Assembly (NCBI GenBank): GCA_009268125.1
Contig: WBOU01000028.1
Coordinates: 1 to 36,567, forward strand
Reading direction: 5' to 3'
Source of the DNA: Chloroflexia bacterium SDU3-3
GTDB lineage: Bacteria > Chloroflexota > Chloroflexia > Chloroflexales > Roseiflexaceae
DNA length: 36,567 nt
Every line of letters starts with the position of its first letter. Within the stretch, counting starts at the first letter, position 1. The position numbers and the translations under genes were made by a program. Of this stretch, positions 5,997 through 20,504 are shown one piece after another. The notes below the pieces were generated by a model that saw only the letters and a program-made list of their open reading frames with translations, made no database searches and had not been told where the DNA came from.

Positions 5997-6126
5997 AGCG
6001 CATGTTGGCTGTCGATAGGCAGGTGGGCCTTGACCGCTTTATCGGACCTCCTCGTAGAGTTGTTGTTGCCTGGAGGGATTTGGGCACCGGACATCGTTGG
6101 TAGTCTTTGAATTGGGCATTATTTGG

Positions 6127-6636
6127 CTAACAATAAGGGCCAATACAATTGATAGCCGAAGCGAACACAAGTATGATACCTGCGAACATGCCAAAAAACG
6201 CAAGGCTTACACCCATTGGTGCCCACACAAACGAATAGCGTAGGTACCTACGTAGTTGCCAGATTTGCAAACTGCTTGCTATTGCCACTGCGAATAACCA
6301 TCTCGGGGTAGTAGGAAATGGTTGCAGGAACAATATTCCAAGGGCAAAAGTTATTATATGGATTGGCCAGAGCCATTGCTTTAGTGGAACGAATCGATAG
6401 AGGACTATTGATTGCATACCGATCACAATTACTGCAGTAAATGTGGTGAAGGCAATCATACCTACATCTGGCACAGTAGACCATAGATCTATCCTGCTGT
6501 ATATCTGGAGCCATGTAGGGATTGCGGTATTTACCAGCCCACTAAAGAAGCTAATGATAACCCACTGTAGCCAATCGCTTTGGTTTGGTGTGGTAATGGT
6601 TGCTCTATCAGATTGATGATTGCGCATTACATGCAA
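6127..6636 (-). CDS. Orphan integral membrane protein, AT-rich
   Basis: A 169-residue protein with about four hydrophobic segments (roughly residues 24-45, 56-80, 90-108 and 138-163) and a polar N-terminus. I recognise no family. The coding region is far poorer in GC than its neighbours and uses A/T-ending codons (ATA, ATT, TTT) that the rest of the window avoids, which suggests recent acquisition. It stands alone between the MFS gene and a broken GTPase gene. The frame is open over 510 bp of AT-rich DNA and gives a coherent membrane profile, so it is probably a real gene. Confidence 0.65.
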   Translation of the reverse strand: MHVMRNHQSDRATITTPNQSDWLQWVIISFFSGLVNTAIPTWLQIYSRIDLWSTVPDVGMIAFTTFTAVIVIGMQSIVLYRFVPLKQWLWPIHIITFALGILFLQPFPTTPRWLFAVAIASSLQIWQLRRYLRYSFVWAPMGVSLAFFGMFAGIILVFASAINCIGPYC

Positions 6637-6765
6637 GCCCTGTAGATGTTATTCCTGAGCAGCAGTATCGCTCGTTGGTTTTCATTAATCAATCACTCAA
6701 GTGCATAGTAAAGTCATCTGAGATATCCTGATCCGTAGATGGACATTCTATCTGCTGCAGAAGGT

Positions 6766-7165
6766 ATGAGCGAGCGGGTGAACGCCCAGGTTGCGCTGCT
6801 GGGAGCGCCTATCGTCGGCAAGACAACGCTGCTTTCGCCTGCTCCGGTGTGCGGATATGGTTATCTATGGGTACTCGGCGGCGCTGGGCGGTGAGGCCAT
6901 CCAGTCGGCGGCGCTGCGGCGCATCGTGCTGCTCGCGTCGGCGCTGCACAAGACGTGGGATTCTATCCCGTGGCTGCTGGTGCTGAACAAGAGCGATCTG
7001 GCGGATGTGCCGCCGCTCTCCCCCGATCTGCCGCCCATCCAGGGCAGGCCCGCCCTGCCCGCCGTGGTCCCGCGCGACCTCATCCCCCCGCATGTGCCTG
7101 CGGTTGCCTGCGTCGCCACCGAGGGCGTGGGCGTGGCCGATGTGTGCGCGCTGTTGCCGCGCTGA
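6766..7165 (+). pseudogene. Broken MglA-like small GTPase
   Basis: Frame one starts at ATG 6766 and encodes a P-loop, GAPIVGKTTLL (6802-6834), then stops at 6894. The rest of a Ras/MglA-like GTPase continues one frame over from about 6848: ADMVIYGYS, the guanine-specificity motif LVLNKSDL, and a C-terminal VACVATEGVGVADV segment like the G5 region of bacterial MglA-type proteins. Only a few codons lie between the P-loop and the beta-4 strand, where intact relatives have some 60 residues with switch I and the DxxG motif. The gene therefore suffered an internal deletion plus a frameshift and cannot make a working GTPase. Confidence 0.72.
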
Positions 7166-15294: not shown

Positions 15295-15321
15295 GAGATG
15301 CTCCTTGTGCGATGTGGTGCG

Positions 15322-15906
15322 CTAGTGCTCGCGCTGGGCGATGGCGTGCTCGATCCGGCTGTCGGGGATGAGCCAGATCAGCGCGCTGAACGCGTAGAGC
15401 GCCTGGCCCGCCCAGGGCAGCACAAAGCTGAGGATGATGGCGGCGATGTAGATCAGCGGCGAGAGCTTGCCCTTCCAGTCGCGGCCAATCGCCTGCCGCA
15501 GCATCGAGCTCGCCCCGTCGGTCTTGATGATCGACTGCTGCAGCAGCCAGTAGGCGCAGGCGGCCATCAGCAGCACAAAGCCGTAGAGCGCCGATGGCTG
15601 CGCGGCGAACTGGTTCTCGCCCATCCACATCGTGACAAAGGGCAGCAGCGAGAGCCAGAACAGCAGGTGCAGGTTGGCCCACAGCACGCGGCCCGTCACG
15701 TGGTGGGCGGTGTGCAGCATGTGGTGGTGGTTGTTCCAGTAGATGCCCACATACACGAAGCTGAGCACATAGCTGAGGAAGGCTGGCAGCAGCTCGCGCA
15801 GCGCCGCGAACGTGGCCTCGTGCGGTGCCTTCAGCTCCAGCACCATGATGGTGATGATGATCGCGATCACGCCGTCGCTAAATGCCTCAAGTCGGTTCTT
15901 TCCCAC
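15322..15906 (-). CDS. TMEM175/DUF1211-like potassium channel
   Basis: A 194-residue membrane protein with six hydrophobic segments. The first contains the family hallmark RLEAFSDGVIAI (5-16), where RxxxFSDGVxAI lines the pore of bacterial and lysosomal TMEM175 channels. A histidine-rich stretch NNHHHMLHTAHH lies after the second or third helix. Bacterial members work as tetrameric K+-permeable channels. The start is GTG at 15906, after GAGAGGGAGAG. It leads the two-gene unit with the acetyltransferase. Confidence 0.9.
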   Translation of the reverse strand: MGKNRLEAFSDGVIAIIITIMVLELKAPHEATFAALRELLPAFLSYVLSFVYVGIYWNNHHHMLHTAHHVTGRVLWANLHLLFWLSLLPFVTMWMGENQFAAQPSALYGFVLLMAACAYWLLQQSIIKTDGASSMLRQAIGRDWKGKLSPLIYIAAIILSFVLPWAGQALYAFSALIWLIPDSRIEHAIAQREH

Positions 15907-15979
15907 GTGTCTCTCCCTCTCCGGTGGCGAACTTCTCAGGGTGGCATCCAGCTGCGATTATACACGCCCCACTGGCAGA

Positions 15980-16933
15980 TCAGATCCGCGCGACGATCTC
16001 CACTGGGTTGCCGTCGGGGTCGAGCACCCAGGCGGCCCGCAGCGCGCCCAGGAAGTCGTGCGGGGCGCTGACGCCGGGCACGCCCTCGGCCAGCAGCGCG
16101 GCGTAGGCGGCGTCCACATCGTCGGTCCACACCACCACCTCGGCGCGGGGCGGGCTGCCCTGGCCCAGCGGCAGTCCGTGCATGGCCTCGCCCGCCGACC
16201 TCGCCGCCAGCCCCAGCACGAGGTCGCCCAGCCGCAGCTCCACATGCACCGGCTCGCCCTCGCTGGGCGTGCGGAAGCGCTCGACAAAGCCGAAGCGCTG
16301 GGTGTAGAAGCGCGCCGCCGCCTCGACATCGGCCACGTAGTAGTTGACCGAGGGGCTGCGGAAGTCCGCGCGGCCCGCGTGCGGCGGTGCAATCAGCTCG
16401 CTGAAGTCGAGATCGCCCGCTGCGACGGGCGTGGCGAACCAGCCGCCCAGGGCCAGGTTGTGGTGGGCGATGATCTGCGCGGCGCTCAGCTCGCCGCTGT
16501 CCCAGGTGCTGTGGCCGTCGCTTATGAGCCGCACGTCGTAGCCCAGGCTGGCGGCGCGGCGGGTGGTGGTGTCCACGCACTGGTCGGTCTGGATGCCCAT
16601 CACCACCAGCGTACGCGCGCCCAGCGCATCCAGGCGCTCGCGCAGGCCGGTCTGGTGGAACGAGTCCGGCGTGGTCTTCTGCACGATCAGCTCGCCGGGC
16701 TGCGGGGCGAGCGCGGGGTGCAGCCCATTGCCAGGCGCGCCCGGCGCAAGCGGGTGGCCCTCGCCGCCCATGTGCTGCACGAACACCACCGGCACCCCGC
16801 GCGCGCGGGCCTGCCCCAGCAGCCCGGTGATGGTGGCCAGCAGCTCTTCGCCGCGGTGCACAGGCGGGATGATCAGGCCGTCGAACATGCCGATCTGGAC
16901 ATCGATCACCAGCAGGGCGGTCGGCGTGGGCAT
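15980..16933 (-). CDS. Isochorismatase-type hydrolase fused to a VOC domain
   Basis: A 317-residue two-domain enzyme. Residues 1-175 form a cysteine hydrolase with the full triad: D11 in LLVIDVQ, K86 in VQKTTPDSF and C119 in GIQTDQCVDTT. The family includes isochorismatases, nicotinamidases and amidohydrolases; the sequence fits the general YcaC/YrdC-like branch. Residues 193-315 form a VOC domain, beginning PSVNYYVADVEAAARFYTQRFGF and ending WVLDPDGNPVEIV. There is no stop or frameshift between them. AGAAGGAG supports the ATG at 16933. The substrate is unknown. Confidence 0.9.
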   Translation of the reverse strand: MPTPTALLVIDVQIGMFDGLIIPPVHRGEELLATITGLLGQARARGVPVVFVQHMGGEGHPLAPGAPGNGLHPALAPQPGELIVQKTTPDSFHQTGLRERLDALGARTLVVMGIQTDQCVDTTTRRAASLGYDVRLISDGHSTWDSGELSAAQIIAHHNLALGGWFATPVAAGDLDFSELIAPPHAGRADFRSPSVNYYVADVEAAARFYTQRFGFVERFRTPSEGEPVHVELRLGDLVLGLAARSAGEAMHGLPLGQGSPPRAEVVVWTDDVDAAYAALLAEGVPGVSAPHDFLGALRAAWVLDPDGNPVEIVARI

Positions 16934-19005: not shown

Positions 19006-20205
19006 CTAGCTTTGCGCCCGCTCCACCTGCTGCCACGCCTGTGTGACTTTGCCATGGCGGTCAACCTCGATCAGCAGGGTGGTGGGCAGTCTCTCCTGTT
19101 GACTGCCATAGTTGATTCGCTGCTGAATAGATTGGATGGCATCCTCAAGAAAATAATAGATCTTGTTAGCGCTGCTCATTTCCTGTTTTCGAAACCGGTT
19201 TGCCTGCTCGTAATAATCTCTGGGGTCTTCCCACAATTTGACGCGCCACATAGCGCCGATATTCTTTGTTTGTCTTCGGGTAAGCTTGTCTATTTCCTTT
19301 AGGCTCTGATCCCATTGAGCTATATCGCGCTGGATTTCTTCAATACGCTGGACTGCGACTGCATGGCTGGTTGGCAGCGCGTATCGTACTTCTGCCGCTG
19401 TGGCGCGAATGAGTGCTGCCATCGCCCAGCGCTGGCAGATCTGGATATACTTCTGGAAAGCCTGCTGAAACTGTTTGATCTCCAAAGCTGGGTCGAACCA
19501 TCCTACCATGTTCATCTGTGAGATTTGCTGTTGCATGTTCTGTAGCCGTAGTGCGCAGTGCTTCATGATTTTCCCGCACTCGTGATCAATGGTGTCGACA
19601 TTCTGCACAAAAGCGTGGATATCGATCTCGGTGAGTGTGCCTCCCGCGATAGATGTGTGGAGTGAGTGCAGACGCTCTAGGCTATACGCCAGTGTTGCTC
19701 GTTCTTCATCCTCAAGCCATGTCTGAATTTCACCAAGCCGCTTCTCAATCTGTTCGAGCCTGCGGTTGATATCGGACAAATAGTGCTGTGCAGTGATCAC
19801 CGCCAGTCCCTGCCAGATCGCCGTGGCCACCAGCGCAGGCGAGAAGGCCGCGCTGATCAGCGAGCCATGGCCGATGATCTGCCCTTGTGTGTTCACCGCA
19901 ATAGCGCGTAGCCCTCCCTCTAGTGATTGCATCATGGTGGCGCTGCCGCTGGCGATCTGGGATGCGATATGGGGCGCAAACTGCACAGCGTAGAGCTGCG
20001 CGGTGGTTGCCATGTTGATGGCGGTGGGCACCAGGTGCAGCAGCGACTCCAGCCCATAGGCCGCGCTCTGGGGGATGTGCAGCAGTTTTCGCTCGTGGGT
20101 ATCGCTGGGGTCGTGGCGATAGATGAGTATATCCGGCTGCGCTTCGCTACCGACAAGAAGCGCATTTGATTCAGGGGTGTGATTGCTGTGAGATTCTGAG
20201 CTCAT
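19006..20205 (-). CDS. Coiled-coil protein with central hydrophobic segment, unknown family
   Basis: A 399-residue protein that I cannot assign. Residues 1-45 are polar, 46-135 are rich in Ala/Ser/Gly, with the strongest hydrophobic run at about 116-140 (ISAAFSPALVATAIWQGLAV). After it comes a long helical part with heptad-like spacing (HYLSDINRRLEQIEKRLGEI at 141-160, then 165-235 and 280-330). The pattern of a membrane-capable segment next to long helices resembles alpha-helical pore formers or membrane-anchored scaffolds. The DNA is less GC-rich than the surroundings. It starts 14 bp after the stop of the glycine-zipper gene, with GAGG before the ATG. Confidence 0.75.
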   Translation of the reverse strand: MSSESHSNHTPESNALLVGSEAQPDILIYRHDPSDTHERKLLHIPQSAAYGLESLLHLVPTAINMATTAQLYAVQFAPHIASQIASGSATMMQSLEGGLRAIAVNTQGQIIGHGSLISAAFSPALVATAIWQGLAVITAQHYLSDINRRLEQIEKRLGEIQTWLEDEERATLAYSLERLHSLHTSIAGGTLTEIDIHAFVQNVDTIDHECGKIMKHCALRLQNMQQQISQMNMVGWFDPALEIKQFQQAFQKYIQICQRWAMAALIRATAAEVRYALPTSHAVAVQRIEEIQRDIAQWDQSLKEIDKLTRRQTKNIGAMWRVKLWEDPRDYYEQANRFRKQEMSSANKIYYFLEDAIQSIQQRINYGSQQERLPTTLLIEVDRHGKVTQAWQQVERAQS

Positions 20206-20219
20206 GAGACCAACCTCGT

Positions 20220-20504
20220 TTATCGTTTAGCGGTTTTTTTGTGAGAACGTCGGTGGTTCTTTTTAAAGGCTTTTCGTACGCCATAGATTGCTAACCCAGT
20301 GATAGCTCCTGCCACAGCCCCAACTGGTCCAGCTGCCGCCCCGAATCCTGCACCTGCTCCAACTACTCCGATAGCGGTCATTCCTGAGGCTGCTATGGTC
20401 CCTGCGCCGACCGCTGCTCCAGCTGCGGCATGCGCGCCAGCCTCAAGCGGATCTCGCTGTTCTTTGATCTTCTTCGCCAATGATTTCGCAACATGGCTTT
20501 TCAT
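20220..20504 (-). CDS. Small glycine-zipper membrane protein
   Basis: A 94-residue protein with a basic N-terminus (1-20), a long Gly/Ala-rich hydrophobic core (about 25-77) full of GxxxG/AxxxG spacings, and a strongly basic tail (78-94, with KKNHRRSHKK). This resembles glycine-zipper or bacteriocin-like membrane peptides, which pack or oligomerise in membranes. AGAGAG precedes the ATG. It forms an operon with the coiled-coil gene 14 bp downstream. No named family is claimed. Confidence 0.72.
   Translation of the reverse strand: MKSHVAKSLAKKIKEQRDPLEAGAHAAAGAAVGAGTIAASGMTAIGVVGAGAGFGAAAGPVGAVAGAITGLAIYGVRKAFKKNHRRSHKKTAKR

Follow-up and report, generated by a model that had tools for sequence, protein, structure and literature searches.

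What could be encoded by two adjacent genes on a Chloroflexia contig, one specifying a small Gly/Ala-rich miniprotein and the other a long helical protein, when neither resembles an annotated family? We addressed this question within a window of 36,567 nucleotides, meaning the whole stretch of DNA that was analysed, which belongs to a contig of 36.6 kb in a genome of 6.76 Mb. The pair lies on the minus strand and would be transcribed in the order zipper gene (20504..20220), 14 bp, large gene (20205..19006). The zipper gene (20220..20504) starts with ATG and codes for 94 residues; the intergenic gap (20206..20219) contains GAGG; and the large gene (19006..20205), also with an ATG start, codes for a 399-residue candidate JukB-like effector. 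An earlier sequence-only reading of the locus had described this two-gene architecture, and both frames were recovered as described. Purine-rich stretches resembling ribosome-binding sites precede both starts, AGAAGAGAG in front of the zipper gene and GAGG in front of the large gene, and together with the 14-bp spacing they suggest an operon. No promoter-like match was returned by a scan of the minus strand.

The base composition of the pair sets it apart from its surroundings. As had been observed in that reading, both genes are poorer in GC (0.545 and 0.540) than their neighbours (0.645-0.70), and the GC content at third codon positions (GC3) is 0.40 in the zipper gene and 0.64 in the large gene, against 0.78-0.90 in typical neighbours. 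Because of this low GC and outlying GC3 in both genes, horizontal acquisition of the pair is suggested. One neighbouring open reading frame (15298-16071) is also low, with a GC3 of 0.59, and a second low-GC stretch occurs in the window at 6001-7000 (GC 0.50). The search for repeats bounding an inserted element yielded only weak, chance-like ones, and the flanking WD40 gene is not conserved in the family genomes, being present in just 2 of 26, its own genome included. Among the immediate neighbours scanned in the window (a nitrilase, the WD40 protein and manA), no defence gene, transporter or immunity gene was recognised.

Annotation of the two proteins agreed with the earlier statement that no known family accommodates them: scans against Pfam, NCBIfam, PHROG and PADLOC gave no gathering-level match for either, and searches of PDB sequences with protein or profile produced nothing credible. 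Candidate identities of the zipper protein as LeoB/LeoBC, a tape-measure protein or a holin were discarded, the matches reflecting low complexity.

The large gene is more than a chance reading frame, since it has a paralog in its own genome and homologs in several phyla. The paralog is full-length and 37% identical, carries an additional N-terminal membrane segment and has no zipper gene beside it; upstream of it lies an open reading frame (L002:412-924) which, judged from its sequence, resembles a macro domain (ADP-ribose binding). A single-protein scan of the genome_contigs collection gave no match, nor did a viral scan with A1. Homologs are sparse among relatives of the host (4 of 400 genomes of the phylum and 7 of 158 of the class), and distant ones occur on an Acinetobacter plasmid and in the Faecalibacterium phage FP_oengus. 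Searches seeded with these two distant homologs reached a wider family found in Proteobacteria and Bacillota, with further members in Chloroflexota, on plasmids and in phages, the Bacillota/phage branch being joined to the rest by profile comparison (E 1e-14, 98%). The FP_oengus copy (L011:5932-6984) lies by itself between the terminase and portal genes and on the opposite strand, a moron-like placement of the kind often taken by phage accessory genes, which makes it a candidate superinfection-exclusion or defence gene. Throughout this distribution the large-gene homologs lack the zipper, the same-genome paralog included, so that the idea of a conserved two-gene cassette fails, for this particular pair, through the independent occurrence that the sequence-only reading had itself named as refuting it.

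A functional context for the family is provided by its genetic coupling to JukA. Juk (jumbo phage killer) systems are characterised by an early block of infection by nucleus-forming jumbo phage. The one known from Pseudomonas aeruginosa consists of JukA and JukB (Cell 2025, doi 10.1016/j.cell.2025.02.016, cited in PMC13282480). In the review PMC13282480, JukA is described as the sensor, as a recruiter with diverse effectors and as one of the most common immune proteins in Gram-negative bacteria, and JukB as a tetrameric pore former acting on the vesicle of early phage infection. A jukA gene directly precedes the homolog on Azotobacter pAcX50d (PADLOC JukA, E 4e-51) and on a Pantoea plasmid (2e-21), and a JukA domain is fused to the homolog in Sphingomonas (E 8e-34) and Methylomonas (4.5e-37). 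Across 58 distinct genome loci we counted 19 JukA fusions, 6 cases of adjacent JukA on the same strand, 3 with JukA elsewhere nearby, and 30 solo loci, four of which are fragments. The family of the large protein is thus genetically coupled to JukA, through fusions and adjacencies that are seen in the proteobacterial relatives and are absent from the window locus itself. Profile searches for JukA gave no match in the host genome (PADLOC PDLC04111) and none in any of the 158 genomes of the class (PADLOC PDLC04113). The model of a JukA-fused relative has a mean pLDDT of 66, its linker and beta part being uncertain.

Some of these loci showed additional particularities. In Tepidiphilus olei, an open reading frame combining a zinc ribbon with a glycine zipper (L068:3769-4239) lies about 130 bp upstream of the JukA-fused effector, and its T. 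margaritifer copy (L069) appears to be frameshifted. Among the fused proteins from Novosphingobium and Sphingobium (L080, L081 and L082), two (L080 and L082) contain a JukA-like part that apparently lacks the Gly/Ala hydrophobic stretch.

Defence genes are likewise found around the relatives. The type I restriction gene hsdR lies near the relative in Kosakonia and likely in Citrobacter, ZacC near that of Sphingobium (L081 is just downstream of it), and a NERD-UvrD gene and an abortive-infection gene near that of Sphingomonas. The L. plantarum relative is flanked by an Eco57I-type enzyme on one side and AbiH on the other, BrxL (BREX) occurs near the relative in Mesobacillus, and helicases of the MrfA and SNF2 types, the latter read from sequence alone, accompany Chloroflexota relatives. 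This association is descriptive, covering the loci of the relatives alone. In Kosakonia the JukA-effector fusion is directly downstream of hsdR (L033:1255-6053), and the Citrobacter locus (L035) has the same open reading frame lengths and spacing. Taken with the coupling to JukA, the assignment of the family to defence is well supported. A defence-island or mobile setting, which the sequence-only reading had suggested checking, is seen among the relatives, some of which lie beside defence genes, on plasmids or in phage, but not among the window neighbours scanned.

The predicted structure of the large protein points to the other component of the Juk system. An AlphaFold2 model built on a 48-sequence alignment (pLDDT 75.8, pTM 0.69) comprises a beta head contributed by both termini (about 15-115 at the N-terminus and strands 375-393 at the C-terminus) and a bundle of six long helices (123-370), the first of which starts hydrophobic (116-140). 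This layout agrees with the single hydrophobic stretch and long helices noticed beforehand, the stretch (116-137) being marginal; no N-terminal hydrophobic segment, anchor or signal peptide was found in the protein. Conservation within the family peaks in a core delimited by invariant alignment columns, which covers residues about 124-146 (codons 19768..19836, minus strand) and reads ...ATAIWQGLAVITAQHYLSDI in the window protein and ...QIASVVVAQKHLADI in relatives. Residues A139, Q140, L143, D145 and I146 are invariant, and the resulting AQxxLxDI...L core falls where the first long helix begins, in its hydrophobic part.

Against a library of 350,000 chains, VIA-align placed JukB (9jht) first for this model (Z 13.4, 174 residues, rmsd 3.4; next row, Z 12.8), helical bundles reaching Z near 13 by chance, and Foldseek placed it third (prob 0.93, E 0.063). 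JukB came to the top of the structure matches after the link to JukA had been found independently by sequence. The PADLOC JukB profile gave no match to the large protein up to E 1; a bridging protein (L017), in turn, matches PADLOC JukB (8e-23) as well as the two-row window-family profile (E 9.5e-4). Comparison of the window family with JukB-like proteins by hhalign paired equivalent positions with a score of 44.4 (prob 65%), whereas none of 20 block-shuffled controls exceeded 36.1 and the reversed control scored 20.2, and another pair of alignments (A7 vs A10) gave 81%. Fold and profile comparisons together make distant homology between the large protein and JukB probable, as distinct from membership of the JukB family. 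JukB-like genes occur in 8 of the 158 genomes of the class, which, as noted, contain no JukA. Two more of them were observed in the host genome itself (L098:1432-2664 on contig C1 and L099:1411-2718 on contig C11), matching PADLOC JukB with E 1e-17 and 2e-16.

How such effectors would reach a membrane differs within the family. An N-terminal membrane anchor is present in 23 of 26 JukA-less relatives and in none of the 6 JukA-adjacent ones (Fisher p 9e-5, relatedness ignored); the three exceptions are a protein at a contig edge and, in Acinetobacter, two proteins whose hydrophobic insert is internal. The anchor is not obligatory, because both it and JukA are missing in the case of FP_oengus phage and of several members from Bacillota and Chloroflexia. 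Since the window protein lacks an anchor and its genome lacks JukA, the zipper gene occupies the place expected for a membrane module. Its product has basic ends and two Gly/Ala-rich halves that are both hydrophobic (Kyte-Doolittle 1.61 and 1.55); it contains 16 basic and 3 acidic residues in all and is predicted to form a two-helix membrane hairpin. That the frame is a gene is argued only from its arrangement, the ribosome-site-like sequence and its composition; no homolog was found in 158 genomes of the class or in a viral scan. A derivation of the zipper from a piece of JukA or JukB is not supported, the similarity not being consistently above that of shuffled sequences: composition-matched shuffles reached the score of the zipper against the JukA C-terminus in 7 of 400 cases for one JukA and in 34 to 278 of 400 for three others.

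On this basis we consider it somewhat probable that the two genes form an anti-phage module of the Juk type without JukA, gained by horizontal transfer, in which a JukB-like effector is combined with a zipper membrane partner. The 399-residue protein would be distantly related to JukB and to the effectors fused or coupled to JukA. Upon phage infection its helical bundle, with the hydrophobic first helix, would insert into or disrupt a membrane, either that of the cell or that of a phage-derived vesicle, a mechanism made probable by the analogy to JukB. The zipper hairpin would replace the hydrophobic C-terminus of JukA, or the N-terminal anchor of the JukA-less relatives, keeping the effector membrane-bound and perhaps gating it. 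Anti-phage activity and pore formation are inferences, and so, as none of the other genomes searched contained the zipper, is its role as membrane partner of the large protein; as an anchor or gate it is a reasonable, if unproven, proposal. The earlier guess of a membrane-active or abortive-infection system therefore fell in the right area, given the JukA coupling, the defence neighbours and JukB as best fold match, even though its conserved cassette did not hold. A more far-reaching version, which strikes us as possible but doubtful, is that the JukA sensor has been replaced by the zipper peptide, effectors of this kind being run by three interchangeable modules (JukA, an anchor of their own, or the zipper), and that Juk-like immunity thereby reaches bacteria devoid of JukA.

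The large protein may instead be a solo defence effector, upstream of which an unrelated or decaying small gene lies by chance. The absence of the zipper from every other genome searched, the existence of relatives without anchor, JukA or zipper, and the contrast in GC3 between the two genes would all fit this explanation. It is nevertheless rather unlikely in our view, as the 14-bp spacing and ribosome-site-like sequences suggest an operon, the low-GC island is common to both genes, and JukA-less relatives are nearly always self-anchored, which the window protein is not. Less credible still, and in our judgement improbable, is a toxin-antitoxin-like pair whose zipper is a membrane inhibitor silencing a pore-forming large protein until infection: a short basic membrane peptide whose gene directly precedes that of a candidate membrane-active protein, in a family with a membrane-acting context, would suit such a system, but no other family member has a partner of this kind, and for the usual one, JukA, the role described is that of sensor and recruiter rather than inhibitor (PMC13282480). 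A two-part bacteriocin or secreted pore-forming toxin, to which a small Gly-rich peptide with a helical protein and weak matches in Foldseek to ClyA (rank 29, E 0.23, TM about 0.2) might lead, is very improbable given a large protein without signal peptide or N-terminal anchor, relatives fused to intracellular JukA and sited with defence genes, and scanned neighbours among which no processing leader, transporter or immunity gene was recognised; nothing pointed to the bacteriocin-type role once envisaged.

The preferred reading of a Juk-type module without JukA can be situated among known systems. With the Juk system the locus shares relatives fused to or directly following JukA, a predicted helical bundle best matched by 9jht and a candidate membrane-acting helical protein of comparable size, but it differs in having no JukA, no PADLOC JukB match and a 94-residue zipper upstream instead. 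The JukB-like genes of the same genome and class (L098, L099, L017/L102 and L103) are likewise JukA-less and comprise an N-terminal part, a hydrophobic Gly/Ala stretch and a coiled-coil core alignable to the window protein, whereas they match PADLOC JukB (E 1e-17 to 8e-23) and carry the Gly/Ala stretch within the protein. The JukA-fused or adjacent proteobacterial effectors (e.g. L019, L033, L037 and L056) match by profile over the whole length and keep the invariant AQxxLxDI core, but are 14-21% identical to the window protein and possess a JukA domain. ClyA-type alpha pore-forming toxins have in common a long helical bundle with a hydrophobic helix, and differ in that the fold match is weak, the window protein has no secretion signal and the beta part is another one.

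Gene fusions and adjacencies now tie an unannotated family to JukA, and its predicted fold ties it to JukB. Many members are equipped with JukA or with an anchor of their own, which gives a testable rule for the route of these effectors to the membrane, and the family constitutes a source to be screened for new defence genes, in which the window pair represents a natural minimal case without the sensor.
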